DNA of 64,000 nucleotides from Candidatus Krumholzibacteriota bacterium (GTDB taxonomy: Bacteria > Krumholzibacteriota > Krumholzibacteriia > Krumholzibacteriales > Krumholzibacteriaceae): positions 46,800 to 110,799 of the forward strand of contig JAFGCX010000027.1 of the NCBI GenBank assembly GCA_016932415.1. Direction: 5' to 3'. Positions within the stretch are counted from its first letter, which is position 1; every line of letters starts with the position of its first letter. The notes below the pieces were generated by a model that had not been told where the DNA came from, made no database searches, and worked only from the letters and a program-made list of their open reading frames with translations. Shown here one piece after another: positions 47,178-63,687 of the stretch. The position numbers and the translations under genes were made by a program.

Positions 47178-47208
47178 AATTCCTCCGGCTCATAAATAAT
47201 CGCCGTTA

Positions 47209-47703
47209 TCAGATAACAATTATCCTTCTGTTGATAAGATCCTTTGTCCCGAGATTGATAATGACGTCCCCTGACTCCAGATCGAAAAGAACATTTCTCT
47301 CAATCTGCCCCCCCGTATGCATGCCTTCTATATTGATATTTTCCTCAACCAACAAAGATACGACATTCAACAATATCGATTCATTTTTTCTTTTTAGTTT
47401 AGAATTGAGTCCGCTATATCCGATATTACCTCCGACGATCTTGGCTACGATTGACTGTTTTCTCCCAGAGTCGTTGTTCAACCTGGACAAAAGAGATCTG
47501 GTCGCGTTTACCGCGAATCTATCATCGCTTCCTTCACCGTAATAGAGGATATGAGCCATGCCGCCGATCTTATCGATACTGTTATAAAGATTCAGAGCGA
47601 TACAAGCGCCCAGAACAGTCGAAAGTTTCTCCGGTGATTGACCGAATCCGATCTGTCCCGTTGGGATATATACCGTCTGATTATTTGAATCACAATAAAT
47701 CAT
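47209..47703 (-). CDS. cheD: Chemoreceptor glutamine deamidase CheD
   Basis: The 164-residue protein has the CheD catalytic dyad Cys34 (STVLGACIALNLYN) and His51 (GGMAHILYYG), plus Thr in MHTGGQ. It deamidates receptor glutamines, and in species with CheC it also interacts with CheC. No CheC is present here. The start ATG 47703 lies seven bases after cheA. Presence of CheD implies methyl-accepting receptors elsewhere in the genome. Confidence 0.93.
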   Translation of the reverse strand: MIYCDSNNQTVYIPTGQIGFGQSPEKLSTVLGACIALNLYNSIDKIGGMAHILYYGEGSDDRFAVNATRSLLSRLNNDSGRKQSIVAKIVGGNIGYSGLNSKLKRKNESILLNVVSLLVEENINIEGMHTGGQIERNVLFDLESGDVIINLGTKDLINRRIIVI

Positions 47704-47710
47704 ATCTTTC

Positions 47711-49924
47711 CTATCCTGATCCGACGCTTGCTTTCACTCTATGAACGTCCATACTCTGCGTCTTAACAGTGTGTTTTCTCAATAATACCGGGATATCAAT
47801 GATCAACACGACTGTTCCATCCCCCATTATAGATGCTCCGGCGATTCCACCTATATCCAGAAATACTCCATTAAGGTTTTTAATGACTATTTCCCGTTCC
47901 CCCACGAGATCATCGACAATTACTCCCACTATTTTGTCAAGGTAGTTCAAGATAACGACATAGAATTCGTTCCCAGGGTCATCCCTCTTTATTTCCAGCA
48001 GATTGCCAAGAGTATAGATCGGTAGGACCTTATCATTGTGACGAAACAACATTTCTCCACAATCATTTAAATTGACCATATGACGTTTTACGAAGATGAT
48101 TTCCGACACATTTGCAATCGGTATCGCGTAAATATTCTCTTCACTCTTTACAAGCAATCCCTGGATGATAGCCAGAGTGATCGGCAATCTTAATATTACA
48201 GCCGTCCCCTTACCCTCTTCGGACTCGACCTGGATAGACCCTTTCAGTTTTTCTATCTCTTTTTTAACGACATCCATTCCGACTCCACGCCCCGATCGGT
48301 CAGTGACATCTTCCATAGTAGAAAAACCAGGCAGGAATATGTACGTCATCAGATCGTGATCGCTCAACGCTTTGTCATTTTTCTGCCCTGGCGACTTACG
48401 ATCCTGAATTTTTCTGCGTATTTTCTCCTTTTCTATTCCCCTACCATCATCTTTGATCTTAATGACTATCTGATTGTATTCCTGATACGCTTCAAGCAAT
48501 AGCTGACCGTTTTCAGGTTTACCCAGCCTAATCCTTTCTTCCGGCAGTTCGATTCCATGATCGATCGCGTTCCTGACGACATGCATTATTGCTTCCCGGA
48601 TCCCATCTACAAGCTTCTTGTCAAGTTCAGTGCTTTCACCACGAATAGTACACTTAACCTGTTTGCCAGTTTCCCTGCTGATTTCGCGAACAACAAGCGG
48701 GACGCTATGAAATATCGCGCCGACAGGTACAAGCCTGCTATTCATTATTCCTTCCTGTATCTCGCTTACTATTCGGCTCTGCTCTTGAATGCTTTCATAC
48801 AGATCATTGATTTCCCTGTTCGATTTGAATCTGTCCCTGATACCTCTTATAAGATCATTATTTCTTGTTCTGTTCGTCACTAGCTCGCCCGCAAGATTCA
48901 TCAGTTGATCGAGTTTTTGAATATCGACCCTGATCACTTCACGTCTCGCGTTGAGTTCATCTTTAAATTTATTATTTCGCGACAATTCCGCCCTGCTATT
49001 CTCCAATTCAACTTCGGCGGCTTTGGCATCATCTGGTACAGCATTCTTAATCTCACTGTCTGACATGATCTCCAGGTTTTCACTTCGACACTGAAGTTTT
49101 TCAATTTTTTTCAGTTCACTTATTTTTATTTTGTCAAGTTCGAGCAGATCGACGATTTCATTCTCATTCAGTGAAGTCTCAAAAAGAAAATCGATTGTTC
49201 CGTTGAATTCTTCCTCGAGATATTCAATCGGCGGTACGGTGACCAACAGGTTCGTTTTATTATCGAGTTCCCTTATTACAAACATCGCTCTGGCAACAGG
49301 CATCGATGTTTCAAGCTCAAAATCAAGCTTTAGATAAAAGATGCCGCCTTTTGCGTTATTGTTATTGATTTCCTTGATCTCTTCGTCAGACAGCAAACTG
49401 ACCAACGTGCTGCAGGATATATTGCCAGTTCCAAGCAACTTTTGATTTTTTCTTGAAACAACGACATTATCATCAGTTAAGGCGGAGTCCGTCTTAATTG
49501 ATACTTTCATCTCTTCAGATGGTTCATTCTGACCTGATTCAATCGCCGCTATCTTTCCAAGCATTGAAGAAATATCACGGCCGTTGTCAGTCGCATTTTT
49601 CTGAATATCTTCAAGAAGGTTTTTAATCAAACCAAAACTGTCAAAAATCACGTTGATGATATCTTCGGTAAACTCATATCTGTTACTCCTGACGGAATCG
49701 AGGATATTTTCGACAGCATGGGCCAACCCTGCCAGAACCTTAAAACCCATAAAGGACGAAGATCCTTTCAGGGTGTGTATAGACCTGAATAAATTGTTGA
49801 TCAATTCGACATTTCCGGGATACTCTTCCAGTTCAATGAAAATATTTTCCATCTGCTGAACGAGGTCTTCGGCGTCAGTCAAAAATGTGACAACAAACTT
49901 GCTTTGTGATAAAGTCAAGGTCAT
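47711..49924 (-). CDS. cheA: Chemotaxis histidine kinase CheA
   Basis: The 737-residue kinase has an HPt domain with His50 in FRSIHTLKGSSSFMGF and a poorly conserved middle (about 130-330). A dimerisation helix pair follows (LDQLMNLAGELVTNRTRN), then a HATPase domain (N box VVRNAIDHGIELP, G1 DDGRGIE, G2 GRGVGMDVVKKEIEKLKGS) and a CheW-like C-terminal domain. Its phosphoryl acceptor in this operon can only be CheB, since no cheY is present. The ATG overlaps the cheR stop (ATGA). Confidence 0.95.
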   Translation of the reverse strand: MTLTLSQSKFVVTFLTDAEDLVQQMENIFIELEEYPGNVELINNLFRSIHTLKGSSSFMGFKVLAGLAHAVENILDSVRSNRYEFTEDIINVIFDSFGLIKNLLEDIQKNATDNGRDISSMLGKIAAIESGQNEPSEEMKVSIKTDSALTDDNVVVSRKNQKLLGTGNISCSTLVSLLSDEEIKEINNNNAKGGIFYLKLDFELETSMPVARAMFVIRELDNKTNLLVTVPPIEYLEEEFNGTIDFLFETSLNENEIVDLLELDKIKISELKKIEKLQCRSENLEIMSDSEIKNAVPDDAKAAEVELENSRAELSRNNKFKDELNARREVIRVDIQKLDQLMNLAGELVTNRTRNNDLIRGIRDRFKSNREINDLYESIQEQSRIVSEIQEGIMNSRLVPVGAIFHSVPLVVREISRETGKQVKCTIRGESTELDKKLVDGIREAIMHVVRNAIDHGIELPEERIRLGKPENGQLLLEAYQEYNQIVIKIKDDGRGIEKEKIRRKIQDRKSPGQKNDKALSDHDLMTYIFLPGFSTMEDVTDRSGRGVGMDVVKKEIEKLKGSIQVESEEGKGTAVILRLPITLAIIQGLLVKSEENIYAIPIANVSEIIFVKRHMVNLNDCGEMLFRHNDKVLPIYTLGNLLEIKRDDPGNEFYVVILNYLDKIVGVIVDDLVGEREIVIKNLNGVFLDIGGIAGASIMGDGTVVLIIDIPVLLRKHTVKTQSMDVHRVKASVGSG

Positions 49925-50766
49925 ACCTTTCTCAAAATACTGTTTCCAAGTTGGACCAATCCGTGTTTCTTTGGATCGATCATCTCTGAATGCCCGAGAA
50001 ACAGGTATCCGCCTTTACGCAGACTATGGGAAATACGATTGAGGACATACTCCCTCTTTTTCTCGCCGAAGTATATTATTGTGTTTCTGCAAAATATCAG
50101 GTCAGCATTTTTATATGGATTCCAATTTTCTGAAATCAGATTAAACTGGGAGAATTCAACGAGATTTATTATCTTTGGTGACAGCCGGAACCCACCGTTT
50201 TCCTTGAAAAAATAGTTATCGATATAGCGACCCGGTATTTCCTTAAGATCATATTCTTCATAGTACCCGGCTTTTGCTTTATTGATATTTTTCTCCGAAA
50301 TATCAGCAGCCGACAGTTTTACAAAAAATCTGTCCTCAACCGACAATTTTTCCGCGATGACCATAGCCGCCGAATAGATCTCCTGGCCATATGATGATCC
50401 CAAAGAGATGATCTTTACATAATGTCCTTTGTCGATCCGTTCGCTGACAAACTCGGGGACTATCTTATTCCCAAGCATGTCATATTGAATCTGGTATCTG
50501 AAAAACGAGCTTTCCGAGGTGACGATCTCCTCAAACAGCTTTCTTTTCTCGAAGAAACGCTGATCGCTTGTTTCGAGAAATCTTCTATATTCGTTTATAG
50601 AATCTATTCCAAGTCTTTCGACCCTTTTTATGAGCCTGTTGGTCATAAAGATGTGTTTGTTATCATGGATTCTTATCCCGACCTCTGATTCAATGAATCT
50701 GCGAAACCAGTTGAAATCATCGCTGCTTAAATAATTATTTATCTTTGATTTTTGCACCTTGAACAC
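49921..50766 (-). CDS. cheR: CheR-type chemoreceptor methyltransferase with altered motifs
   Basis: The 281-residue protein has the CheR N-domain and SAM-methyltransferase domain. Several conserved motifs are altered: ESSFFR replaces the common ETxFFR, SLGSSYGQEIYSAAM replaces SAGCSTGEEPYSxAM, and FCRNTIIYF replaces FCRNVLIYF. The His-Ser-Glu near the end (LFLGHSEM) is normal. It may therefore act on an unusual receptor, or bind SAM differently. The start is GTG 50766, overlapping the cheW stop by one base. Confidence 0.88.
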   Translation of the reverse strand: MFKVQKSKINNYLSSDDFNWFRRFIESEVGIRIHDNKHIFMTNRLIKRVERLGIDSINEYRRFLETSDQRFFEKRKLFEEIVTSESSFFRYQIQYDMLGNKIVPEFVSERIDKGHYVKIISLGSSYGQEIYSAAMVIAEKLSVEDRFFVKLSAADISEKNINKAKAGYYEEYDLKEIPGRYIDNYFFKENGGFRLSPKIINLVEFSQFNLISENWNPYKNADLIFCRNTIIYFGEKKREYVLNRISHSLRKGGYLFLGHSEMIDPKKHGLVQLGNSILRKV

Positions 50767-51269
50767 TACCCCTCGATAATTTCTTTCTCCAGTTTGTGGT
50801 GATCGATCTTGCTCTTGAATTCCTCATCAAAGATCTTTCCTATATCGAGGATGAAAATCAGTTTATCTTTCAGCCTGCCAATTCCACTTATGAATTTGTT
50901 CCTTTTCGTCACCGCGGTTTCAGGTGTGTCTGATATCATATTGAATGGTATCTCAATGACATGATGAACAGAATCGACAAGCAACCCAAGCAATGATTCC
51001 TCATGTTCAACTACAATCACGCGGCTTTTTGTGGTCATTGCCATGTCTGGCAAGCCAAGTCTTTTACGCAGATCCATAACGGGGATGACATTTCCCATGA
51101 TGTTTATGACACCAAGGATGTATTCGGGAGATCCTGGTACATCAGTGATCTCCTGTACCCGGTTTACCTCCTGGATGGACGAGATATCCTGCCCGTACCA
51201 TTCTTCACCAAGTTTGAAATTGACGCACATCAATATTGATTTTTTCTCGGTATTTTCATCGTTCATCAT
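50766..51269 (-). CDS. cheW: Chemotaxis coupling protein CheW
   Basis: The 167-residue protein is a single CheW domain, with NFKLGEEWYGQDISSIQEV, GSPEYILGVINIMGNVIPVMDL and GLLVDSVHHVIEI. It links receptors to CheA. The start is taken at the ATG pair 51269/51266, seven bases after GAGG; an in-frame start at 51308 would add residues absent from the family. It is the first gene of cheW-R-A-D-B. Confidence 0.93.
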   Translation of the reverse strand: MMNDENTEKKSILMCVNFKLGEEWYGQDISSIQEVNRVQEITDVPGSPEYILGVINIMGNVIPVMDLRKRLGLPDMAMTTKSRVIVVEHEESLLGLLVDSVHHVIEIPFNMISDTPETAVTKRNKFISGIGRLKDKLIFILDIGKIFDEEFKSKIDHHKLEKEIIEG

Positions 51270-51322
51270 TATTAAGCACCTCACAAATGGATATTTCCGG
51301 CTACACAATCTCTTCGTCTTTA

Positions 51323-51427: not shown

Positions 51428-52999
51428 TCAGTGCTTTTGAAAAAGAACAGGAAGAAGAATTATGAATAGATTCCCGAGAAACATCAGGAAGAATGATAGC
51501 TGCCCATATTTGCAGTAAAATGTCATTTTCCTTAATATCGTCACCGGAGTAATGAACATTCCATTCTTGTTTAAATCAATGGAATACTTGACCCTTCCGG
51601 CAGGGTCTACGGACATCGAAATGCCGGTGTTAGCTGCCCGGATAAGTGATACTCCGTTTTCGACAGCACGAAGAACTGGCATTTCGGCATGTTGCATTGC
51701 TCCCCTCGAGCTTCCGAACCAGCCGTCATTTGTAATATTGACTAAAAACTGGGCTCCATTTCTAATATATTTTCTTGCATATTCAGTAAACGTCGATTCG
51801 AAACAGATCAGAGTGCCAAATTTGCCCGCAACGGAATCAAAAATAGTCATATTTTCACCATGTTTGAAATTGGCCTGTCCAAAATCAATCTTTTCCAGGC
51901 CGGGGAAATATTGGCTGAATGGCACCTTTTCGCCAAAGGGCAAAAGCTTTATCTTTTCATACTGAGCGGTCAATTCACCTTTTTTGTCGAACAATCCACA
52001 AGCGTTGAATCCTATCCACTTTTCACCTTCCTGAATATGATTTATGTACCCGATCAGAAGATCGACTCCCGAATTGTTTGAAATCCTCTTTAACCAGTTT
52101 CTGTATCGAGTGGAGTGACTTACCGAGACAGGCGCTGCCGTCTCAGGGAATATTACTAATTTCGCTCCAAGCTCGGCACCTCTCTTCGTCAGTTCATCAA
52201 TTTGAACAAAAATAGAATCACGATATTCCGGTTTCCATTTAATTCCTAAATTGACATTCGGTTGTACGATAGCGATATCCTCCCTGGATCTGTTATCAGT
52301 AATATCCCTGTCTATCTGCCCGATCCGCATGTTCCCATACGCAAGATGAGATATCGTAACAACGGCCAGAACAACCGAAGCCAAGGCTTTATGCTTTTTA
52401 TCGCTGGAAAAGATAATGAAGGCTATCAGCACATTCAGGAGGACAATAACCATCGATAATCCAAATGGGCCATATATAGACAACCCCTGGAGAGCGATCG
52501 GATAGGGCACAAGAGAACTTGAAATCAATCCCCATGAAAAAGCAAGTTCACCATTACTGCGTATGAATTCGATCAGTGCCCAGAGCGCTGGAGCCGTAAA
52601 AACAGCTCTTATTCCAAAACGTTTTATAAGCCATGATAATAACAGGGTAAAAAGCCCCGTAAAACATGAAAGGTACAATACAAACAGAATCACCGCTGGA
52701 ATAAGGATCCACGACATATTGATACTTGACTCGGGAATAAGGTTGGCTATCCAGTAGAGGAGAATCGAGAAAAAGGCGATGCCAAACAGATACCCGACCC
52801 AGAATCCTTTCTTAAGGGCATTCTTTCGCCAGACAACCCGCGGAAAAACGACTAAAAAATATCTTATCAGCGGAACAAGAGCAACAAGAGATAAGATCCT
52901 TGTTGGAAAAGGAGGGAAAGCGGCTGCCATGAGCAACCCGCCAGAAAATCCGGCGATAATCTCATCCTTCCAGTAAAATATAAATTCTCTTCTCTTCAA
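51428..52999 (-). CDS. lnt: Apolipoprotein N-acyltransferase
   Basis: The 523-residue inner-membrane enzyme adds the third acyl chain to lipoproteins. About six to eight helices precede a nitrilase-type domain with Glu in VIFPETAAPVS, Lys in KIKLLPFGEKVPF and Cys in LICFESTF. The NITNDGWFG motif and a final helix are also present. The start is TTG 52999, placed right after GGGAG. A longer frame from 53095 contains the predicted promoter and cannot be the true start. Its presence supports an outer membrane with lipoprotein sorting. Confidence 0.92.
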   Translation of the reverse strand: MKRREFIFYWKDEIIAGFSGGLLMAAAFPPFPTRILSLVALVPLIRYFLVVFPRVVWRKNALKKGFWVGYLFGIAFFSILLYWIANLIPESSINMSWILIPAVILFVLYLSCFTGLFTLLLSWLIKRFGIRAVFTAPALWALIEFIRSNGELAFSWGLISSSLVPYPIALQGLSIYGPFGLSMVIVLLNVLIAFIIFSSDKKHKALASVVLAVVTISHLAYGNMRIGQIDRDITDNRSREDIAIVQPNVNLGIKWKPEYRDSIFVQIDELTKRGAELGAKLVIFPETAAPVSVSHSTRYRNWLKRISNNSGVDLLIGYINHIQEGEKWIGFNACGLFDKKGELTAQYEKIKLLPFGEKVPFSQYFPGLEKIDFGQANFKHGENMTIFDSVAGKFGTLICFESTFTEYARKYIRNGAQFLVNITNDGWFGSSRGAMQHAEMPVLRAVENGVSLIRAANTGISMSVDPAGRVKYSIDLNKNGMFITPVTILRKMTFYCKYGQLSFFLMFLGNLFIILLPVLFQKH

Positions 53000-53029
53000 A
53001 CATCTCCCTTCAACTGCCAATCGCGGTGG

Positions 53030-53059
53030 ATTATAATCAAAATACACTATTTCAACCAA
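53030..53059 (-). promoter_or_regulatory. Sigma-70-type promoter for lnt
   Basis: The minus strand shows TTGGTT, 18 bases, and a perfect TATAAT, giving transcription from about 53023, some 24 bases before the TTG start codon at 52999. Confidence 0.6.
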
Positions 53060-53181
53060 TATTAATTTAATATTTATCCGAATATCTCGATACAAAGCGA
53101 TTATTCGCCATGTTAACAGGAATGAGTTCCTAGAGTATTCTCATCGAATCCAAGTATAAATTTGATCTCATTCAACAATAA

Positions 53182-54828
53182 TCAACCATCTCTGGCGAGT
53201 GATCCCGATGCTTGGAAGTCCTTTCCGCTTAAAGAAAGACGCTTCATTTTTTTCAGCAGGCCTTGCCGTGTTATCCCGAGCATTTCTGCTGACCGAGTCC
53301 TGTTTCCGGAAAAACGTTTAAGTGTTTTCTCAATCATCTTCAGTTCCAGCCGGTTTACAGCTGCTGGCAGAGTCTGATCTTCAAAATCCGATCCCTGTGA
53401 AAGATCAATGTTGTAATTCCGTACTGAAGACGAGAACATCTCTGAAAGCAGAAGCGGATTATCGGGAAAAAGAGCAATGGCTCTTTCAATTTCATTTTTT
53501 AGTTCTCTGACATTTCCAGGCCAGTTGTACGACAAAAGATCCCTTGCGGCTCCGGCAGAGATCTGTGGATTTTTTCTTCCACGCTTACTGGAACCAGTAT
53601 CTAGAAAATGTCTGGCGAGAAGCAATATGTCTTCTTTTCTTTGCCTCAATGGAGGGATATATAATCGGACTCCCTTTATCCTGTAGTATAAATCTTCTCT
53701 GAACCTTTTTTCTTTCACCTGACTGGCAAGATCTCTGTTTGTGGCAAATACAAACCTTACATCGATCTTCCGCCTCTGACTTTCTCCCACACGTCTTATC
53801 TCCTTTTCCTGAATGACTCTAAGCAATGCCGCTTGAAGGTGCAGGGGCATCTCTCCAATCTCATCAAGGAAAAACGTTCCACCTCCCGCGCTTTCCACTA
53901 ATCCGCGTCTATTATTCATCGCTCCTGTAAAAGAGCCTTTTACATGCCCGAACAGTTCGCTTTGGAGCAGTGACGGCGGCAGTTCCATACAGTTGATAAT
54001 GACTAGTGGACCCACTCTCCCGGGATTGAGGTTATGAATATTTCGGGCGACAATCTCCTTCCCAGTACCATTTTCACCTTCTATTAAAACTGGAATCTTG
54101 CTGGAGGCTATATTCTTCAACTGATTTTTTAATTTTATAACTCCGGGCGAAAATCCGAAAAGTGGGGGATCTAAATCCTTAATCGAATATTTTTGCCCTG
54201 AACAAGCCGTTCTCCCTGAATCGGTATTTTCGGAAATTACATTGATTCCCGCTATGTTCAATATTGGTTCAAGCAGATCCATGAATCTACTCGCGGCATA
54301 AAGATTTTGTATCATCGCCCCGTCAAGAGACCTTCGACATACGATCCTGACCTCTGTGTCCAACCGATGAATTCTGCCTCTGAATACCCATTTCCCGTTA
54401 CCAAGGTTATCCAGAACCCATCCATCTTGATAGCAAACAGGTTGATTGCACGTCACAATACCTGGGAATCCGACCGGGAAGGATAAATCCTCCTTTTCAT
54501 CTCTGTCATGGAAGTTACCACCTCCTGACATTTCAGGAAACAGGAATGATATTTGCCTACCTCTAATGATATCTGTTCTTGAAGGCTGTTTATCGTATTG
54601 ATGACGATGATCGATGATCTTGAGCCGCTTTTCATCCTCTTGATAAAACGCACGCAGATAAGCAGACTCCAAATCACAGAAATGACAAAGTATCCTTAAG
54701 AATTCGTCTATCAGGTTTTCCAAATGTTCTTCCTCCCGGAATATCCCTTTTGAAAAGAAGAAATCCTTCCAGATATAAAAATTATTTCCTAAATTTAAAA
54801 TATCCCAGTCAAGTTTCCTTAAGCCCAA
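53182..54828 (-). CDS. Sigma-54 enhancer-binding transcriptional activator with GAF-like sensor
   Basis: The 548-residue protein has an N-terminal sensor region (1-215, GAF-like, not firmly classified). An AAA+ domain (about 225-465) has Walker A EGENGTGKE, Walker B GGTFFLDEIGE, the arginine finger region and a GSFTGA loop in place of GAFTGA. A Fis-type helix-turn-helix closes it (RSAEMLGITRQGLLKKMKRL). The loop contacts sigma-54, and Ala to Ser is a change at a conserved position. The start is TTG 54828 with only a weak ribosome site. The gene is divergent from the PqqD-like gene. Confidence 0.9.
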   Translation of the reverse strand: MGLRKLDWDILNLGNNFYIWKDFFFSKGIFREEEHLENLIDEFLRILCHFCDLESAYLRAFYQEDEKRLKIIDHRHQYDKQPSRTDIIRGRQISFLFPEMSGGGNFHDRDEKEDLSFPVGFPGIVTCNQPVCYQDGWVLDNLGNGKWVFRGRIHRLDTEVRIVCRRSLDGAMIQNLYAASRFMDLLEPILNIAGINVISENTDSGRTACSGQKYSIKDLDPPLFGFSPGVIKLKNQLKNIASSKIPVLIEGENGTGKEIVARNIHNLNPGRVGPLVIINCMELPPSLLQSELFGHVKGSFTGAMNNRRGLVESAGGGTFFLDEIGEMPLHLQAALLRVIQEKEIRRVGESQRRKIDVRFVFATNRDLASQVKEKRFREDLYYRIKGVRLYIPPLRQRKEDILLLARHFLDTGSSKRGRKNPQISAGAARDLLSYNWPGNVRELKNEIERAIALFPDNPLLLSEMFSSSVRNYNIDLSQGSDFEDQTLPAAVNRLELKMIEKTLKRFSGNRTRSAEMLGITRQGLLKKMKRLSLSGKDFQASGSLARDG

Positions 54829-55057: not shown

Positions 55058-55426
55058 GTGAAAGAGAAAATAGAAGTAAATCTGCTGGAATTAATTCCTG
55101 AGAAGCTGATTGATCAGGAAACTGATGAAAACGGGATGATAACGCTTTTAGTTCCAAGATTTAGAAATCGTTTTCTGAAAATAATGAACGACCGGTCCCC
55201 ACATAGAAGATTTGTAAAGATGAAGCTTGATGAAATCGGTAGTTGCGCATGGTCCAGTATCGATGGAAAGAAAAACATAAGACAGATCGGCGAGACACTG
55301 CGGGAAAATTTCGGAGAACAGATCGAGCCATGTTATGATCGTCTGAGTATGTTCATGACAAAACTCGAATACGAAAAGTACATCAGGTATATCAATCTGG
55401 ATCATCAAATAGCCGGTACGGAGTGA
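55058..55426 (+). CDS. Orphan PqqD-family protein (RRE-like fold)
   Basis: The 122-residue protein resembles the PqqD family, the peptide-binding winged-helix fold (RRE) used by radical-SAM peptide-modifying systems. The match is in FVKMKLDEIGSCAWSSIDGKKNIRQIGETLRENFG and the following helix. No radical SAM enzyme, precursor peptide or PQQ gene is next to it in this window. The start is GTG 55058 with only a weak purine-rich ribosome site. The role is unknown; it may bind a peptide segment of another protein. Confidence 0.75.
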   Translation: MKEKIEVNLLELIPEKLIDQETDENGMITLLVPRFRNRFLKIMNDRSPHRRFVKMKLDEIGSCAWSSIDGKKNIRQIGETLRENFGEQIEPCYDRLSMFMTKLEYEKYIRYINLDHQIAGTE

Positions 55427-55484: not shown

Positions 55485-57410
55485 CTAGTTCAGCCGGATA
55501 ATAACAGCATTCATACTTCGATCCTCTTCCACCTCTATTGTAAAATTATAATCAGATAACGGAGGAAGACTGAACAATAGATACTCAGGTCCCATCGATG
55601 ATATCTCTCCTGTGACTGGTCCGGAACAGTAGTCCGCGAAAGAATAATACAGCGGGAGAAAGTCCACTCGCATATTTAGTGAACTGTACGTGAAACGAGT
55701 ATCATCGGTAATTTCAAGATCATCAAGAAAAAGAGTGGCGATCCAGTCACTGAATATTTCGAAGAACTTCATCCCAGTCGCTTTCTCCACATTCCCAATC
55801 CCTGTCTCTTTGGATTGAACAAGTTTTTTGAAGACGGTTTCCCCGAACCTGTCGCCCAGATACCTGAAAAAGAGGAAGGACGCGCCTCTTTCCGGAATAC
55901 TGTTTCCGCCATGAATAAGAGAAACTGTGCCAGGGTCAGCCAGGAACCTGTTCGCTCTTTTAACATTATCCTCATCGTAACAATTCAAGTCTTCAGCAAT
56001 ATGAGCCAAACCTTCGTCCACCCATGTTTCTTCAACGTAAGTTGGAAGAATACCATTACCATAATCAAGTACTCGGTAATTGAACATGATCATGTGTAAA
56101 AATTCATGCCCTAGAACTCCTTCGATCGCGAGGAGCGCCTTATCTTTTTCATACGTATTTTCATAAATACCTTCCGGGTCCGGAACGATGGTATAAAACA
56201 CCTCCATCGCGTTAGTACAGGCAGGGTTCATATAAGCCGGGATCAGATCGCCAGGCATGAAAAATCCAGCGATATAACCTTCAGTCGATGCCGTTCCTGA
56301 AGGAGTGAGCAGATTAACGACAGGAGAAAGAAGTATCGCAACCTTGCGATTTCCATCAATATCCGATTCAGATCCAAACGCTTCCCTGTTTTTCTGATAA
56401 ATACTTGTATCGAATATTTCACCGAGAGCTATGGTTTCACTTCCAGTTATACAGCTGATATCTGTCATTTGATCGAGATAGACCAGAGTGTGGATTCCCT
56501 CATAGACAAGATCGGCCGTTACAGCAGTAAAACTGCTTGGATCGATTGTGCTTCCTTCAGGGTCAGCGTACACGCTAAATGTCATAGTCTGAGGTGCCAT
56601 TGTTGCCGTGTTTTTACGGAAGTCAGTAATTTCCGGGCTTACATCACTTCTTGTAACTGAAGTTATCGCCAGGAGACAGTCATTTCTTCTTCGTTTTTCA
56701 AAATCGTATCTTCTCCTCGCACCGTCGCCGTCTTCCATAAAAGCTGTCAAATCCTTGTGATCTCTACCCGAAACATTTGTAGTTACACTGAATTCGGTTT
56801 TTGCATCTTCCACCCTGACATTGGAGCATGGACTATCGGCAGCAAATGAATATTGGGACAGATCTGATGGATCCTCGGGATCGGAGCTCTCAAAGAGAAT
56901 CATCAGATACTGCTCTGCTTCCTCTGATGTTACTGATTTAAAAGAATATGCTTCCGACGAAAAGAATATTTTGGCTACATTTCCTGCTTCCTGATTGATT
57001 CTGACTGGCAAAGCGTTCGATGAGATTTCAAAGATGTCAGCTTCAAATGGATTTGCATTATTGATGAGATCTACAAATTCAATTCTCAAATGACCGGAAA
57101 AAGCTCCATCCGGTACTATAGTTTTGATTTCATCATTAACTATTTCAACGGGGATCACTTTCCTGCTTGCTATTGGATTGGAAAACTCACATGGAGAAAA
57201 CGACACTCTGACTCGAGACCGGACCAGGTCAAAATCAGTCCCATATAATGTAATGGTATCTCCGACACTTGCTACGGCAGGTTCAAAAAATACAATTTCA
57301 GGCGGGACTATAATAACGGGATCATTACTACAGCCTGATAGATTCATTATTCCGAATACAGTAAGGAGATATACCGTGATCCCCGAAAACTTCAAGTGAT
57401 TGACGAACAT
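55485..57410 (-). CDS. Lipoprotein metallopeptidase (M30-like gluzincin) with IPT/TIG-like domain
   Basis: The 641-residue protein has lipobox LSGC (Cys27). An IPT/TIG-like domain (about 37-130, IVFFEPAVASVGDTITLYGTDFD) follows. The peptidase domain has HEFLH at 435-439 and a downstream Glu466 in WVDEGLAHIAED, the gluzincin zinc site complete. Such domains resemble hyicolysin-type (M30) peptidases. It is probably an outer-membrane-anchored secreted protease. It converges on the PqqD-like gene, with 58 bases between and no strong terminator. Confidence 0.85.
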   Translation of the reverse strand: MFVNHLKFSGITVYLLTVFGIMNLSGCSNDPVIIVPPEIVFFEPAVASVGDTITLYGTDFDLVRSRVRVSFSPCEFSNPIASRKVIPVEIVNDEIKTIVPDGAFSGHLRIEFVDLINNANPFEADIFEISSNALPVRINQEAGNVAKIFFSSEAYSFKSVTSEEAEQYLMILFESSDPEDPSDLSQYSFAADSPCSNVRVEDAKTEFSVTTNVSGRDHKDLTAFMEDGDGARRRYDFEKRRRNDCLLAITSVTRSDVSPEITDFRKNTATMAPQTMTFSVYADPEGSTIDPSSFTAVTADLVYEGIHTLVYLDQMTDISCITGSETIALGEIFDTSIYQKNREAFGSESDIDGNRKVAILLSPVVNLLTPSGTASTEGYIAGFFMPGDLIPAYMNPACTNAMEVFYTIVPDPEGIYENTYEKDKALLAIEGVLGHEFLHMIMFNYRVLDYGNGILPTYVEETWVDEGLAHIAEDLNCYDEDNVKRANRFLADPGTVSLIHGGNSIPERGASFLFFRYLGDRFGETVFKKLVQSKETGIGNVEKATGMKFFEIFSDWIATLFLDDLEITDDTRFTYSSLNMRVDFLPLYYSFADYCSGPVTGEISSMGPEYLLFSLPPLSDYNFTIEVEEDRSMNAVIIRLN

Positions 57411-57495: not shown

Positions 57496-57534
57496 GAATC
57501 GTCTGGTGGCGCGCCTACCGATGATAAGCAATAA

Positions 57535-57552
57535 CCCGGCATATATTTTGCA
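57535..57552 (+). promoter_or_regulatory. Sigma-54-type -24/-12 element upstream of the activator gene
   Basis: CCCGGCAT...TTTTGCA is seen, with GG at 57538-57539 and GC at 57550-57551, exactly 10 bases apart. The -12 side matches TTGCA, while the -24 side has CGGCAT instead of TGGCAC. The element is 61 bases before the activator ATG, suggesting autoregulation. Confidence 0.5.
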
Positions 57553-57612
57553 CTTACACCATCAGGCAGTTCGAATTAACCAGTAAATCATTTAGGAAAC
57601 CGAGAAGATCCA

Positions 57613-59040
57613 ATGGAACTTAAACTCGACCTGATCCCCTATGACATATCCGCAGGTGACGTTATACAAAAGGATTGCGCGGAAGCTGGATGGAATATAA
57701 ATCGCTTTTCGACGATTGAAAAGCTTCTTTCTGCTGCTCGGAAAAGTACATCTCCATTGGTCGTTCTTGCAATATCAGGTAAATCCAACAATTCGAAAAT
57801 CGAATATGAATTGGACCGTTTGAAATTGTGGCATGATCAAAACCCGAAGACGCAGATGATTCTGGTCACTCCGAAAGATTATCAGGCCGCTGCTGAGATC
57901 TCACTGAAACTTGGAGTGAGACATTCCATCTCATATCCATATAAAACCAAAGATCTAACTGGTATCCTTTCAAAGATAGCGACAGGCCTCAGCAAAAGAC
58001 ACCACATGGACGCGGTAAACGAGCATCTTCACAGACCAGAGGGATTCGATGAGATTATCGGAGAAAGTAAACCTATACAGGAAGTCCTTCAACTGGCAAT
58101 GAAGGTCGGTAAAAGTGAATTCACCTCGTTGATGATCACTGGCGAGAATGGCACGGGGAAAGGGGCTTTGGCTAAAGCGATACATCAAATCAGTTCCCGT
58201 TCGTCAGGTCCGTTCATTGAAGTCAATTGCGCCGCAATTCCCAGAAATCTTCTGGAAAGTGAGTTCTTTGGTTACGAAAAAGGCGCCTTCACTGATGCCA
58301 AAGAAAGAAAGCTGGGTCTATTTGAACTTGCCAATGGTGGTACTATCTTTCTGGATGAAATCGGAGAAATTGACTACGGTCTTCAGGCAAAGTTGCTTAA
58401 GTTCCTCGACTCCCGAACGATAAGACGCGTCAGCGGCACGCAATTCTTGCCAGTAGATGTCAGGATCATATCAGCTACAAACAAAGATCTGAAGGAATTG
58501 ATAGCTTCCAACAGATTTCGAACAGACTTGTTTTATAGGCTCAATGTAATAGAAATCAATCTTCCTCCTTTGAGAGACAGGATTGAAGACATCCGTCCCA
58601 TAGCACTTAAATTTACCGATATCTTTTCCACTCGTCTAAAAAAAGGACATACCAGGCTGACTGAAGACGCTTGCACACTATTGGAAAAATATAACTGGCC
58701 GGGGAATATACGTGAGTTAATCAATCTTATTGAACGAGCAGTCCTGCTTGATAGCGACGGGCTGATAAAAGCCGACGATCTGCCAATAAAGAATGAAACC
58801 TGGGATAATATGCTAAGTCTTGATAACTCAGAAGGAAATATAAGGATTAATATTCCATCTGAGGGAGTACCTCTCGAGTCTGTAGAAAAAGGTCTCATCC
58901 TGGGGACTCTTGAACGAACAAATGGAAATATAAGCCAGGCAGCAGGCCTTCTTAAGGTCGAACGAGGAACATTAAGATATAAAATGAAAAAACATGGAAT
59001 CAATGCCTCTGATCATAAGGAAAAAATCAAAACTGGCTGA
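57613..59040 (+). CDS. Sigma-54 enhancer-binding activator with pseudo-receiver N-domain
   Basis: The 475-residue protein has an N-terminal receiver-like fold (about 1-125). At the phosphoacceptor position it reads PLVVLAISGKSNN, lacking the usual Asp, so it is a pseudo-receiver not expected to be phosphorylated. The AAA+ domain has GENGTGKG (Walker A), GGTIFLDEIGE (Walker B) and a GAFTDA loop. A Fis-type HTH ends it (NISQAAGLLKVERGTLRYKMK). The start ATG 57613 has a weak GAGAAG site. The canonical sigma-54 promoter 300 bases downstream is its most obvious target. Confidence 0.92.
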   Translation: MELKLDLIPYDISAGDVIQKDCAEAGWNINRFSTIEKLLSAARKSTSPLVVLAISGKSNNSKIEYELDRLKLWHDQNPKTQMILVTPKDYQAAAEISLKLGVRHSISYPYKTKDLTGILSKIATGLSKRHHMDAVNEHLHRPEGFDEIIGESKPIQEVLQLAMKVGKSEFTSLMITGENGTGKGALAKAIHQISSRSSGPFIEVNCAAIPRNLLESEFFGYEKGAFTDAKERKLGLFELANGGTIFLDEIGEIDYGLQAKLLKFLDSRTIRRVSGTQFLPVDVRIISATNKDLKELIASNRFRTDLFYRLNVIEINLPPLRDRIEDIRPIALKFTDIFSTRLKKGHTRLTEDACTLLEKYNWPGNIRELINLIERAVLLDSDGLIKADDLPIKNETWDNMLSLDNSEGNIRINIPSEGVPLESVEKGLILGTLERTNGNISQAAGLLKVERGTLRYKMKKHGINASDHKEKIKTG

Positions 59041-59417
59041 AATGAACCACATCTCGTAACACATTAATATTATTATTGTTATACGGCCCGCTCACAAAAC
59101 CCGGGATAATTCCACAAAATACATCTGAAATATCACCTAACTGGCTTGATCTTCCACATCAGTGAATTTTTAAATATTTCGTTTTGCCCACTTATTTCAG
59201 ACTCCGTCGGCAAAATCCTATAGTCATCGTAATATATTATTATAATAATAGTTATGCTTGTAACAGATCTTTACTTCTGAACATTTCCTGACCACTTCTG
59301 CCTTGATTGGAATACATCTAAATCCCAAAAATCAACTCATGGCACCTCAGTTGCCTTAGCAGTGGGTAGAGTTGTTAAGTAGATGTTCAATAGAGTCCGA
59401 TAAAGGAGGTGTGAAGC
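59041..59417. promoter_or_regulatory. Intergenic region with sigma-54 control elements
   Basis: This 377-base stretch has no supported gene. It is AT-rich in its middle. An inverted repeat TTTTGCC (59182-59188) and GGCAAAA (59209-59215), 20 bases apart, lies about 125-160 bases upstream of the -24/-12 promoter and is a candidate activator-binding site. Confidence 0.5.
59340..59354 (+). promoter_or_regulatory. Canonical sigma-54 promoter (TGGCAC-N5-TTGC)
   Basis: TGGCAC at 59340-59345, five bases CTCAG, then TTGC at 59351-59354 match the -24/-12 consensus exactly. Transcription should start about 12 bases after GC, near 59366, giving a short leader with AAAGGAGG at 59402-59409 before the lipoprotein ATG. 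Confidence 0.85.
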
Positions 59418-59951
59418 ATGAAAAGATCCAAAGCCCAAATTTTCCTCACTTCAATAACCTTCCTCAGTGTACTGGCTGCCATGGGCTGTGGAACGAACTC
59501 GCCTGTTACCCCCTCACAGGATTACACTTTGCCCGGTGTCGAGAACCCTCTTTTCGTACAGCTGATCGCCTCCTCGGGCTCTACGCACGAAATAATCGGT
59601 TCCTCTTCTTCTAATATCGTATCCGCAGAAGAAGGTGGAATAGTAACAAACGGTTACTATAGCCTTTATTTCCCTCCGGGTGCTCTTGATGAAGATACTG
59701 AAATCACCATCGAGATGCCTCGCTATCCTGAAGCAGTAGTTGAACTTGGGCCGCACGGTATCCAGTTTAACAAACCGGTCACCCTTTCTCTCTCTCTTGA
59801 AAAGGTTGATTCAGCAGCTTCCAGGTTCGTGGTGTACTGGTTCAACGAAGAATCCAGTCTCTGGGAAAATATTGGTGGTGTAACGTATGGTAATGCAACC
59901 TCCGTTGAACTTGAACACTTCAGCGAATACGGGCATACACCAATGCTATAA
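59418..59951 (+). CDS. Small lipoprotein with ZU5-like domain
   Basis: The 177-residue protein has a lipobox AMGC with lipidated Cys24, a Ser-rich linker, and a ZU5-like beta domain (about 70-170). This domain is marked by the pattern GGxVxxxxxSLYFPPGAL, DTEITIEMP and LGPHGIQFNKPVTLSLSL. ZU5 domains occur in many secreted and surface proteins, often before larger autoproteolytic or binding modules; here it stands alone. It has a strong ribosome site (AAAGGAGG), a canonical sigma-54 promoter and a clear terminator, so it is a well-controlled single-gene unit, probably abundant when on. Confidence 0.85.
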   Translation: MKRSKAQIFLTSITFLSVLAAMGCGTNSPVTPSQDYTLPGVENPLFVQLIASSGSTHEIIGSSSSNIVSAEEGGIVTNGYYSLYFPPGALDEDTEITIEMPRYPEAVVELGPHGIQFNKPVTLSLSLEKVDSAASRFVVYWFNEESSLWENIGGVTYGNATSVELEHFSEYGHTPML

Positions 59952-59978
59952 TATTGATTTGTCACATGAATTTAAAAG

Positions 59979-60008
59979 GCCCTCTCAACATTGCGAGGGC
60001 TTTTTTTA
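59979..60008 (+). terminator. Rho-independent terminator after the lipoprotein gene
   Basis: GCCCTC (59979-59984), a 10-base loop, GAGGGC (59995-60000) and then eight consecutive T-rich bases (TTTTTTTA). This ends the sigma-54-driven unit before the kinase gene. Confidence 0.85.
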
Positions 60009-60045
60009 TTGGTATTTTTGCTAATTCACTATAGTATTTCAATCC

Positions 60046-63000
60046 ATGAAAAAGACCATTAAGCTTCCCGGAAGGTATACGATCCTACATTCCCTTGGCG
60101 AAGGGGGCACAGGACACGTCTATAAGGTCTCTGATTCAGTATTAGATAAAACTTTAGCTTTGAAGATCCTCAGTGACACTGACAGCAAGGCTCACAAGAC
60201 ACTGGAAAAAGAATTTGAAATCCTCTCCAGACTTGATCATCCCAACCTTGTGAAAGTACATGATTTTGGGTTTACCGCTGATAACACGCCATATTTGACT
60301 ATGGACTTTATTGAAGGAGATAATCTTCGCGTTTTTCTTAATGACAATATCAACAATATCATTCCTGTTCTTATTTCGATTTTTTCAGCGCTGAACTATC
60401 TTCACACAAAAAATGTGATACATGCAGACATCAAACCTGAAAATATTATGGTCACTTCTTCAGACAATAATACACGCACTACTCTGATGGACTTTGGGTT
60501 GGCAATCATAGGAAATTCAAATCAAAAAGAAATATCCGGGACAGTCCACTACCTTTCACCAGAGATATTGACAGATTCAATATACTCCAACAAATCAGAT
60601 TTTTATGCGCTAGGCATCACTATTATCAGCTGTCTTACAAATATACATATCCCAATAGCACATAAAATAACAGACAAATTCTACAAAAATGCATACAGTC
60701 TCTTAAAAGAAGTATTCAACGATGCGGGAATCAATAGTCCTTCATCCCTTGCCAGTTTTATAATTTCCCTCAGTAGTTTTGATTCTGATCAAAGGCCCGA
60801 AAGCGCTGAAGATTGCACTCAGTTCTTATCAAGACTTTATAATATCACAAATAACTTAATGCCTGTAGTACAGCGTAATATTTTTGTGGGCAGAAAAGAT
60901 GAAATTGCTGCCGTAAATAATTTTCTTGATTCAAGCAATATCTCAATAAACACTTTACTGATACTCGGAGAAACTGGTATCGGCAAAAAATCTCTTATAC
61001 AGCAGGCAATCAAAATTGCGCAACTAAAGCATTTTACAACCATCGATACATCAGACATTAACTTCAAGTACGATTCTTTTAACAAGTTTATAAATGCATT
61101 AGGAACTCATCTGCCGAGTATTTCTGAAGATAATCTCAAGAAAAAGCATAATGATATTCTAGAGTCATTTACATCGAATGATTCTCCTGGAATACCTTCT
61201 AAAGAACAAGATATCACCCCAGTAATATACGACAATATCATCCAGTTTCTAAATGAGTTATCACTCGATCAGCGCATTTTAATATGCTTCCCTGATATTA
61301 TGAGTTTTAGTACAGATTTCATCCGCTTTATCAGCCATTTGATCTACGAAACAAATATGCTTCATTCAAACGTCAAGATATTGATTTCGCGAAATACTGA
61401 TATTAATAACGGCAAGTTCAAATTAGAACTATTCAGAGTTATATGTAACATGGATAATATTCTTCAAGTTCATCTAAACCCATTTACAACTGTAGATTTA
61501 TCATCTCTTTTAGTAGAAGAATTTGGAAATATTCTTTTTTCAATAAATGAATTAAATATCTTGATTTATAAATCAAATGGCATACCTCTTTATATAAATA
61601 ATATTCTTGGTTATATGTTAAAAACTTCTGCTATTTATCAAGTAAACAATAACTATTTTTTAGACCGTAAACTTCTAAACAATTTTAATATCCCGATATC
61701 ACTAAAAGATATCCTAAAACACACTCTATCATCAATACCAGTTAATCAAAGAAATATCCTTCAATTAATTGCAATTTGGAAATCAAAAATTACCATTTCA
61801 GATCTCTCCTTCTTTTTATCTAAACAACAGACTGAAATATTTTCTGATATCTCTATTTTGCTCGGCTTGAATATTATTAGCGTAGAAAACGATACTATTA
61901 TTTTTAATAACCCTTCTTACCGTTCTCAAATCATTAAAACTATTTCTTATAATAAGCGCATTAGATTAAATAGGGATATAGCTGTATTTTTATCAGCTAA
62001 CAATTCTATTGATTATCACATAATTGCAAACCATTTTATTGATTCGAATGATTTAAATAATAGCATAAAATACGGATTGCTGTCTGTTGACACCCTTGTT
62101 TCTAATCACGAATACTTTAATGCATACGATCTTCTTAATAATATTTATAAATTATCACAAAAAAACGGGACAATTGATAATGCAATAATTATTCTAAGTC
62201 ATCTTGTCACAATTGAATTAAAAATTGGACTAATAATGGATTCAATAGAACACTATGATTTTCTTATTAAGCATACCAGTTCAACCAATAATAAAGCTCT
62301 ATATTTAAAAGAGTTAGGCAGAATCAAACATTACTACTTTCTAGATAAAGAAAGTGCATATACACACTATTCGGATGCTAAACATATTGCTATTAAATGC
62401 AATGATACTGATTTGCTTATCGAAATAATGATTTTGCAAGGGCTTTGCAAACAAGATAATAATTTAAATATATTATTGGAAGCTGCAGATCTCGCAATAA
62501 ATAAGAACCTTAATTTATATGTTTATTCATTATCACAAATCCTATACAAGTATAAATTAGCTGGCAATATTAAAGAAATGGTTAAGACAAAAAACAAACT
62601 GCTTCATGTTATTAGTAATCCTAATATTACTATTTCAAATAGAAGATTGTCCATTTACATGCTTGCTTTAGCTAGTTTTTACCAAGGGGATTACGAACAA
62701 GTAAAACTATATTTAACTGAAATGATGGAAATATCTAATATTACATGTAATGAGGTTGAAAATGTGTCTAATTTATCGATGCTGGGGAGCATTTATTACA
62801 TAAATGGTAATTTTCATCTTTTAATAAGCACTTTGAATAAAGCTCTTGCTATCACAAAAAGATTAAACATGCATTCATTTATGATAATAATTCTATCAAA
62901 CTTATCAACTGCATATCACATTCTTGGAGATTACCGTTCTGCCCTAGATTTTAACAATAGAGCCAAATCTATGATGGAACAATATTCAAATTACGATTTA

Positions 63001-63687
63001 ATAAATGTTTTTAAACAACTAAGGTTTATTATTACATTTGGTGATTTTTACAAAACAGAGTTAAGGCATTATTCTAATAAATTAAGAAGGCAAGCCTTAA
63101 AGAATAATAATTCAATAATACTAGGATTAAGATCTTTGGCTCTTTCTCGGTATTATTATCAACTTCTTTCTCATACAAAAGCTCTAAAATATGCCTTGAA
63201 GGCGCTTGATTATTTCCGTAAAACAGCAGACAAAGATGACATCGTTGACACACTATCACATATGTGTATTTATGAACTTGAAAATAACAACACTGAGCAA
63301 GCAGCTTCCTATATTAAGGAAGCTCGTGAGATATTTGACGCTATTCATTGTGACTATTTAAAGCCATATCTTTTACTTGCGGAAGGATCTCTGTCCAGAG
63401 TTACCCATAATTCAGCCGCAGAGTTGATCCTTAAAGAAGCGTATAAAGCAAGTTCGAAAATGGGGACTCGTGAAAACACATGGCAAATTCAGCGACAGCT
63501 GGCTCTTTACTACATCGATAGTGGTTCGTACAATAACGCTGTGGAGATGTTTCGAGAAGCCATTGAGACGATAAAGCAAATAACAGAATCAATTCCAGAA
63601 GAGGATATGAAACTATCCTACTTGTCACTTCCATTCAGAAAACGCATTTTCGATGAAATCAAATCTCTAAAATCATCAAATAAGTGA
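60046..63687 (+). CDS. Ser/Thr protein kinase - NTPase - TPR signalling protein (PknK/MalT-like), AT-rich
   Basis: The 1,213-residue protein starts with a eukaryotic-type kinase domain (10-265): GEGGTGHVY loop, Lys40, catalytic loop HADIKPEN with Asp128 (HAD instead of HRD) and DFG at 149-151. A NACHT/AAA_16-like NTPase follows, with P-loop GETGIGKK at 308-315. Residues of about 680-1200 are TPR-like repeats. No output domain is visible at the end. Such kinase-NTPase-TPR proteins act as large signalling hubs. The gene is strongly AT-rich and differs in codon use from its neighbours, a sign of transfer. No ribosome site precedes ATG 60046. A TATAGT box at 60030-60035 would make the mRNA nearly leaderless. 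Confidence 0.9.
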   Translation: MKKTIKLPGRYTILHSLGEGGTGHVYKVSDSVLDKTLALKILSDTDSKAHKTLEKEFEILSRLDHPNLVKVHDFGFTADNTPYLTMDFIEGDNLRVFLNDNINNIIPVLISIFSALNYLHTKNVIHADIKPENIMVTSSDNNTRTTLMDFGLAIIGNSNQKEISGTVHYLSPEILTDSIYSNKSDFYALGITIISCLTNIHIPIAHKITDKFYKNAYSLLKEVFNDAGINSPSSLASFIISLSSFDSDQRPESAEDCTQFLSRLYNITNNLMPVVQRNIFVGRKDEIAAVNNFLDSSNISINTLLILGETGIGKKSLIQQAIKIAQLKHFTTIDTSDINFKYDSFNKFINALGTHLPSISEDNLKKKHNDILESFTSNDSPGIPSKEQDITPVIYDNIIQFLNELSLDQRILICFPDIMSFSTDFIRFISHLIYETNMLHSNVKILISRNTDINNGKFKLELFRVICNMDNILQVHLNPFTTVDLSSLLVEEFGNILFSINELNILIYKSNGIPLYINNILGYMLKTSAIYQVNNNYFLDRKLLNNFNIPISLKDILKHTLSSIPVNQRNILQLIAIWKSKITISDLSFFLSKQQTEIFSDISILLGLNIISVENDTIIFNNPSYRSQIIKTISYNKRIRLNRDIAVFLSANNSIDYHIIANHFIDSNDLNNSIKYGLLSVDTLVSNHEYFNAYDLLNNIYKLSQKNGTIDNAIIILSHLVTIELKIGLIMDSIEHYDFLIKHTSSTNNKALYLKELGRIKHYYFLDKESAYTHYSDAKHIAIKCNDTDLLIEIMILQGLCKQDNNLNILLEAADLAINKNLNLYVYSLSQILYKYKLAGNIKEMVKTKNKLLHVISNPNITISNRRLSIYMLALASFYQGDYEQVKLYLTEMMEISNITCNEVENVSNLSMLGSIYYINGNFHLLISTLNKALAITKRLNMHSFMIIILSNLSTAYHILGDYRSALDFNNRAKSMMEQYSNYDLINVFKQLRFIITFGDFYKTELRHYSNKLRRQALKNNNSIILGLRSLALSRYYYQLLSHTKALKYALKALDYFRKTADKDDIVDTLSHMCIYELENNNTEQAASYIKEAREIFDAIHCDYLKPYLLLAEGSLSRVTHNSAAELILKEAYKASSKMGTRENTWQIQRQLALYYIDSGSYNNAVEMFREAIETIKQITESIPEEDMKLSYLSLPFRKRIFDEIKSLKSSNK

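Follow-up and report, generated by a model that had tools for sequence, protein, structure and literature searches.

Most receiver-type activators of sigma-54-dependent transcription are explained by histidine kinases. In FleQ, FlrA and VpsR, an N-terminus with the receiver fold but without a usable phosphoacceptor precedes a sigma-54 AAA+ domain and a Fis-type helix-turn-helix (HTH), and at least two of these activators, FleQ and VpsR, are gated by a ligand or a partner. Contacts of FleQ with cyclic di-GMP (c-di-GMP) involve the Arg of an LFRS motif and an Arg-Asn pair after Walker A. Coupling of Ser/Thr kinases to sigma-54 activators is known from the FHA-domain enhancer-binding proteins of Myxococcus. 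STAND proteins are ATP-driven switches forming multimeric hubs (PMC4381067). The present analysis concerns a locus of Candidatus Krumholzibacteriota (assembly GCA_016932415.1, a draft genome of 3.1 Mb) located in the last 64 kb of contig JAFGCX010000027.1, a stretch of 64,000 nucleotides referred to below as the window. A sigma-54 activator, a small ZU5-fold lipoprotein and a Ser/Thr kinase-NTPase-TPR protein are encoded there side by side. We read this locus, with a probability of about 0.5 for the whole explanation, as a regulatory cassette for one envelope lipoprotein; that the local activator drives lipoprotein expression through sigma-54 appears likely from the conserved sequence.

An initial annotation, made from the letters of the window, had proposed three plus-strand genes, and open reading frame calls confirmed them at their coordinates. 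Pfam matches identified the first product as a sigma-54 activator (Sigma54_activat, E = 3e-65; AAA_lid_14; HTH_8) and the second as a ZU5 protein (E = 2.6e-5, above the cut-off). The third, as had been claimed, is a 1,213-residue Ser/Thr kinase (Pkinase, E = 3e-42) with a P-loop (AAA_16, E = 1e-5, below its curated cut-off) and TPR repeats (TPR_12/MalT-like TPR, TPR_12 being above cut-off). Fifty-eight genomes of the same class were searched with each of the three proteins and the loci were then inspected. Activator and lipoprotein genes were adjacent in 17 genomes, distributed over two families of one order, and the kinase gene came next in 12 of the 12 genomes (11 relatives and this one) with contigs long enough to include it; the G007 alignment covers the kinase domain alone, part of that sequence being masked. 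Within the two families, activator and lipoprotein were both present in 17 genomes and both absent from seven, the activator occurring alone in one. The annotation had staked its proposal on the three genes being neighbours in relatives, and the order activator-lipoprotein-kinase was clearly kept. The conserved block takes in more than the three genes initially described, since 16 of the 17 genomes have a homologue of the divergent metallopeptidase gene on the upstream side of the activator, all 15 non-truncated copies carrying HEFxH and a WxxEGLAHIAE-type motif. At the other end, clustering of all neighbours showed no gene family recurring directly downstream of the kinase, which marks the edge of the block; in this genome the contig ends about 300 bp past the kinase gene.

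The exact TGGCAC-N5-TTGC promoter announced before the lipoprotein gene is present. Thirteen exact sites were counted genome-wide, against three for a reversed-pattern control, so that a single exact box is modest evidence only. The decisive observation is conservation: the box was recovered in 17 of 17 genomes (13 perfect, the others with 8-9 of 10 positions), directly followed by CTTA in most of them, which backs the earlier view that the lipoprotein gene is probably sigma-54-driven. For eight of the other 12 exact boxes, a start codon preceded by a ribosome-binding site follows at a distance of 57-177 bp, and three of these eight precede secreted or lipoprotein-like proteins. This placement agrees with the cell exterior as the published domain of sigma-54 control (PMC3162934). 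The genome contains one copy of rpoN and roughly 21 sigma-54 activators.

Upstream of the lipoprotein gene there are two copies of an inverted repeat of the form GTAAC-N17-GTTAC, with a constant spacing of 172-176 bp. With all arms scored alike, GTAAC ranked first among 1024 five-base arms (z = 7.9), with sharp optima at a gap of 17 and a distance of 172-176, a score that is inflated by shared ancestry and that includes a site 1 close to the activator stop codon. It is plausible that these paired repeats constitute the enhancer of the lipoprotein promoter. The combined pattern of sites plus box was found in this genome at this locus only, and a wider regulon with the same sites was dropped; elsewhere it was found at the counterpart locus of G024 and at single places in G002, G007 and G020. 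A second conserved element lies between the two activator sites, at about 59100-59150; in relatives it takes the form of a GGAATATTCC-like palindrome with CCCAA behind it. The activator gene is itself preceded by a sigma-54-like element, which most relatives have 68-90 bp ahead of the start codon and which another, more distant family within the class has at positions of about -105 to -115. A possible activator site straddles this element, in the same register and with an arm score of at least 7, in six of 17 genomes including this one (background 0.25%), and the activator may thus possibly be autoregulated through its own promoter.

Although neighbours, the three genes do not form one operon. 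An intrinsic terminator separates lipoprotein and kinase genes, here and in every relative with a contig long enough to include the kinase, and a TTGnnn-N16-18-TAnnnT element lies 6-8 nt before the kinase ATG in 10 of 12 genomes. This arrangement suggests that the kinase transcript is probably leaderless and made independently of sigma-54, and it places the kinase gene outside the sigma-54 transcript; an operon of all three genes was therefore ruled out. Coordinates are given in Table 1.

Table 1. Features of the cassette and its surroundings (window coordinates)
Feature	Position	Strand	Basis
Divergent secreted, lipoprotein-like metallopeptidase, HEFLH...WVDEGLAHIAE	55485-57410	-	homologue comparison; NCBIfam MXAN_6640_HExxH weak
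Possible activator site ATAAC-N17-CTTAC, straddling the activator's own promoter	57531-57557		arm score
Sigma-54-like element of activator gene, rGGCATrTATcTTGC, GG-N10-GC	57537-57551	+	17/17 genomes, 8-9 of 10 consensus positions
Sigma-54 enhancer-binding activator, 475 aa (pseudo-receiver aa 1-125; AAA+ with GAFTDA aa 148-392; Fis-type HTH aa 421-461)	57613-59040	+	open reading frame call, Pfam, orthologue alignment, AlphaFold model
Candidate upstream activating sequence 1, GTAAC-N17-GTTAT	59056-59082		motif scoring across relatives
Candidate upstream activating sequence 2, GTAAT-N17-GTTAT, 173 bp from site 1	59229-59255		motif scoring
-24/-12 promoter of lipoprotein gene, TGGCACCTCAGTTGC, then CTTA	59340-59354	+	exact match, conservation
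ZU5-fold lipoprotein, 177 aa	59418-59951	+	Pfam, alignment, model
Intrinsic terminator between lipoprotein and kinase, -11.5 kcal/mol hairpin + T7	59979-60007	+	sequence
Sigma-70-like kinase promoter TTGGTA-N17-TAGTAT, 8 nt before ATG	60009-60037	+	sequence comparison
Ser/Thr kinase-AAA_16-TPR protein, 1213 aa, STAND/PknK-like hub	60046-63687	+	Pfam, alignment

No Response_reg match was obtained for the activator, even with residues 1-140 alone at E = 10. In the AlphaFold model (17 orthologues), residues ~1-139 adopt an alternating beta-alpha receiver fold with a predicted local distance difference test (pLDDT) value mostly above 80, the AAA+ loop regions being poorly predicted, and a Foldseek search with the whole protein listed NtrC1, NtrX, FleQ and VpsR among its best matches. 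The claim of an activator devoid of a phosphoacceptor Asp fits both this predicted fold and the alignment, as no conserved Asp follows strand 3 in the 17 orthologues. Residues G26-W27, W73, Q81 and R103 make up a conserved patch. By the phosphoacceptor criterion, sequence comparison thus supports the view that this protein is not a two-component response regulator and that the usual Asp-phosphorylation route is closed. Walker A, Walker B and the sigma-54 contact loop are conserved in the same orthologues, the loop being an invariant GAFTDA instead of GAFTGA. Loss of sigma-54 contact was considered for this variant and ruled out by the conserved promoter, by two ordinary receiver-type activators of this genome that also carry GAFTDA and by the functional activator FlgR, which has D for G5 of GAFTGA (PMC3162934). 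With an AAA+ domain bearing a GAFTGA-type loop, a -24/-12 partner promoter with upstream sites, and rpoN, the locus shows the attributes of sigma-54 enhancer-binding regulation. FleQ-type c-di-GMP control was dropped because the contact residues are not kept, F-D-E standing for F-R-S and A-K-A for A-R-N at the aligned positions; FHA-type coupling was likewise dropped, no FHA domain being detected in the activator by the Pfam scan.

The kinase protein comprises a kinase domain (aa 11-254), an AAA_16 P-loop NTPase (aa 280-434) and TPR repeats (about aa 840-1180). K40, H126-x-D128, K130, N133 and D149-F-G were invariant in 13 kinase sequences, HxD being H[GA]D, of the non-RD type, and the NTPase Walker A was kept in most orthologues. 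The kinase is therefore apparently catalytically active, as far as conserved motifs can tell, and the succession of complete Ser/Thr kinase motifs, P-loop NTPase and repeat sensor is that of PknK-type STAND kinases. Neither a signal peptide nor a clear membrane anchor was detected, apart from one borderline hydrophobic stretch at aa 713, and a cytoplasmic location is probable. The gene is AT-rich (GC content 0.32 versus 0.47 for the window), most strongly in its NTPase-TPR part, and in most relatives its GC content is lower than that of the activator gene. No published STAND kinase acting on a sigma-54 activator was found, a weak negative as few subscription journals were covered.

By inspection, the lipoprotein has a hydrophobic N-terminus and a lipobox with invariant L19, A20, G23 and C24. 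The Cys after the signal peptide is followed by a disordered linker to about aa 60 and by the ZU5 domain (aa 61-177); the model has a mean pLDDT of 69, with low values confined to the N-terminal 60 residues. The ZU5 fold was recognized by Foldseek (ankyrin-B ZU5, E = 2e-6) and by VIA Z scores of 12.7 for ankyrin-B ZU5, 9.1 for CD97 (GAIN), 6.8 for NLRP1 (FIIND) and 6.5 for CARD8; values below 8 may reflect a common arrangement only, and NLRP1 and CARD8 count less than ankyrin and CD97. An HFS motif before the last strand (aa 167-169, positions 59916-59924) was invariant in 15 orthologues and also present in four distant relatives. Rat NLRP1 undergoes autocleavage at F968/S969 (PMC8081665) and PIDD is cleaved at HF/S (PMC3210808). 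Provided that the alignment has no gap at its end, S169 falls on rat NLRP1 S969, the last aligned pair being model residue 177 and chain residue 977. Self-processing has been proposed for bacterial surface ZU5 domains (PMC3482391), and self-cleavage of the lipoprotein at HF/S is predicted.

The distant family gave a second view of these linkages. Its lipoprotein gene has retained a sigma-54 box, with TTGCC(T/C)TA at the end (8-10 of 10 positions), and in three genomes adjoins, in convergent orientation, a gene for a kinase-TPR protein of 1300-1333 aa; adjacency in the opposite orientation implies that the link is not merely operon structure. The activator gene of this family also has its own GGGCA(C/T)-N5-TTGC box. 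In one distant relative (G040), the kinase gene that adjoins the lipoprotein gene is immediately preceded, on the same strand, by a gene for a TPR-Sigma54 activator. Four TPR-Sigma54 fusions were found in the home genome, one with TPR below the cut-off, in addition to a 1548-aa AAA_16-TPR-GAF-Sigma54-HTH_8 protein (G000:C10:36500-41143; L158:11498-16144) that has relatives throughout the order. A catalytically complete kinase within such AAA_16-TPR-Sigma54 fusions was sought and dropped, none being found in the members inspected. The fusions and the G040 arrangement show that sigma-54 activators of this group do receive input through TPR and NTPase modules, which lends indirect support to a kinase input for the present pair but is no proof of it.

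The explanation that we prefer can be set out in four steps, of which the first is strongly supported by the sequence, the second is supported and the last two are inferred. The local activator would bind both GTAAC-N17-GTTAC sites, which lie some 85-285 bp ahead of the -24/-12 promoter, and direct sigma-54 transcription of the lipoprotein gene alone, stopping at the terminator. Its pseudo-receiver would be gated not by phospho-Asp but by a binding event, a different modification or the level of expression, and the sigma-54-like promoter of the activator gene, together with the overlapping operator of some relatives, suggests a feedback loop. Expressed on its own from a sigma-70-like promoter, the kinase-NTPase-TPR protein would be a STAND sensor of PknK/MalT type in which the TPR repeats bind a cytoplasmic signal and the NTPase switches state; the kinase or the assembled hub would then act on the activator and set lipoprotein output. 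The product would be a surface or periplasmic lipoprotein whose ZU5/GAIN-type domain may cleave itself at HF/S. The initial annotation had suggested that the kinase or its NTPase, in place of a histidine kinase, may control sigma-54 output, a reading that is partly supported; the kinase as an input to the activator is held tentatively, at somewhat under an even chance. The most specific form of the proposal, in which the STAND Ser/Thr kinase hub directly gates the activator through its dead receiver, with a single self-cleaving surface ZU5 lipoprotein as output, is unlikely.

Several observations weigh against this cassette reading. The kinase is transcribed separately from the sigma-54 transcript, the orthologue alignment of the pseudo-receiver contains no invariant Ser or Thr, and in the distant family the activator orthologue lies away from the lipoprotein-kinase pair, linked instead to the metallopeptidase. 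Two conserved linkages, activator-metallopeptidase and lipoprotein-kinase, thus seem to be joined in the order that includes this genome. The paired sites were mostly not seen in the distant family either, and the N-terminus of the 1548-aa fusion, possibly a degraded kinase, is only weakly kinase-like (hhalign probability 32%, E = 5e-4). The kinase diverges fastest (53% identity within the genus, versus 72% and 81% for the other two proteins), which suits a sensor, yet also a looser partner, and all conservation counts are inflated by shared ancestry. The separate terminator and promoter of the kinase, the missing phosphosite, the distant-family activator without an adjacent kinase and the conserved sigma-54 element before the activator gene speak for a rival in which activator and lipoprotein form a complete loop. 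Its gate would be a small molecule, a protein partner or the level of the activator, whose own sigma-54 promoter would be driven by another activator or by the activator itself. The kinase hub would then be a neighbour in the same envelope process with other targets. FleQ and VpsR, as ligand- or partner-gated proteins among the best fold matches, also count for such a loop, to which we grant a substantial minority share of our confidence; the FleQ c-di-GMP residues are, however, not kept, and the kinase stays strictly beside the lipoprotein in separate families and in opposite orientations.

This same adjacency, kept in the distant family with the activator elsewhere, could mean that the kinase acts post-transcriptionally on the lipoprotein, on its export, processing or turnover, the activator being regulated independently. 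Such a role is improbable, since a kinase that is probably cytoplasmic, with no signal peptide or clear anchor, has no access to the mature lipoprotein. Within a small clade, ordinary neighbours might also have stayed together through limited rearrangement and with no functional link, as the triplet is lineage-restricted, all genomes belonging to two families of one order. However, the genes just past the kinase differ in every genome although the block is intact at 50-60% activator identity, and in intergenic DNA that has otherwise diverged, the promoter and the paired sites are still conserved. As conservation does not extend equally to the flanks, this last explanation is largely refuted and very improbable.

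Other genes of the window were recorded. A sigma-54 promoter for the divergent metallopeptidase was considered and dropped, its strand being without a conserved sigma-54 box. A second sigma-54 activator, with no receiver domain match, is divergent from a small PqqD-like gene (53182-54828 and 55058-55426), and the PqqD-like family recurs near the cassette in 10 relatives. A chemotaxis cluster with CheB, CheA, CheR and CheW (46044-51308) is followed by an apolipoprotein N-acyltransferase gene (51428-53095). Further upstream, a cyclophilin-type peptidyl-prolyl isomerase fused to a HEAT-repeat array (29268-31325) adjoins an SNF-family transporter gene, and a 3770-aa open frame with CARDB and FG-GAP repeats leaves the window at 2-11311, encoding a probable giant surface protein.

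In this compact conserved locus the histidine kinase route is closed, and the obvious candidate for the input is a Ser/Thr kinase with STAND architecture. Promoter, likely enhancer sites, target gene and candidate sensor are all provided, which reduces the gating of dead-receiver activators to a small and tractable question, and the ZU5 lipoprotein with its invariant HFS adds a candidate to the bacterial self-cleaving surface proteins. As far as the literature was searched, the cassette consists of known parts in a new combination, its pairing and conserved cis layout being undescribed.

Among known systems, FleQ, FlrA and VpsR resemble the activator most in domain organization, and FleQ is the closest solved AAA+ sequence besides being, with VpsR, among the fold matches. 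In contrast to them, the present activator has GAFTDA, is without the FleQ c-di-GMP residues and is linked to a Ser/Thr kinase gene, and its adjacent target is a lipoprotein gene instead of flagella or biofilm genes. FlgR of epsilon-proteobacteria, by its D at G5, makes GAFTDA compatible with sigma-54 activation, but it is a flagellar regulator without a DNA-binding domain, whereas the activator described here has an HTH and candidate upstream sites. Unlike in the FHA proteins of Myxococcus, any coupling to a Ser/Thr kinase must run through the receiver-fold domain or the AAA+ part. The hub is similar to PknK and MalT in its kinase at one end, P-loop NTPase and TPR sensor, a comparison made beyond the kinase domain at domain level only; sigma-54 activators are not a known target of PknK-type kinases, while here one is linked genomically. 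The lipoprotein shares its ZU5/GAIN/FIIND fold with PIDD, NLRP1, CARD8, adhesion GPCRs and bacterial surface ZU5 proteins, and its ZU5 fold with ankyrin and UNC5b as well; its HFS is the cleavage motif of PIDD and is consistent with the alignment to F968/S969 of NLRP1. It differs, however, in being a small bacterial lipoprotein that stands alone and has neither UPA nor death domains.

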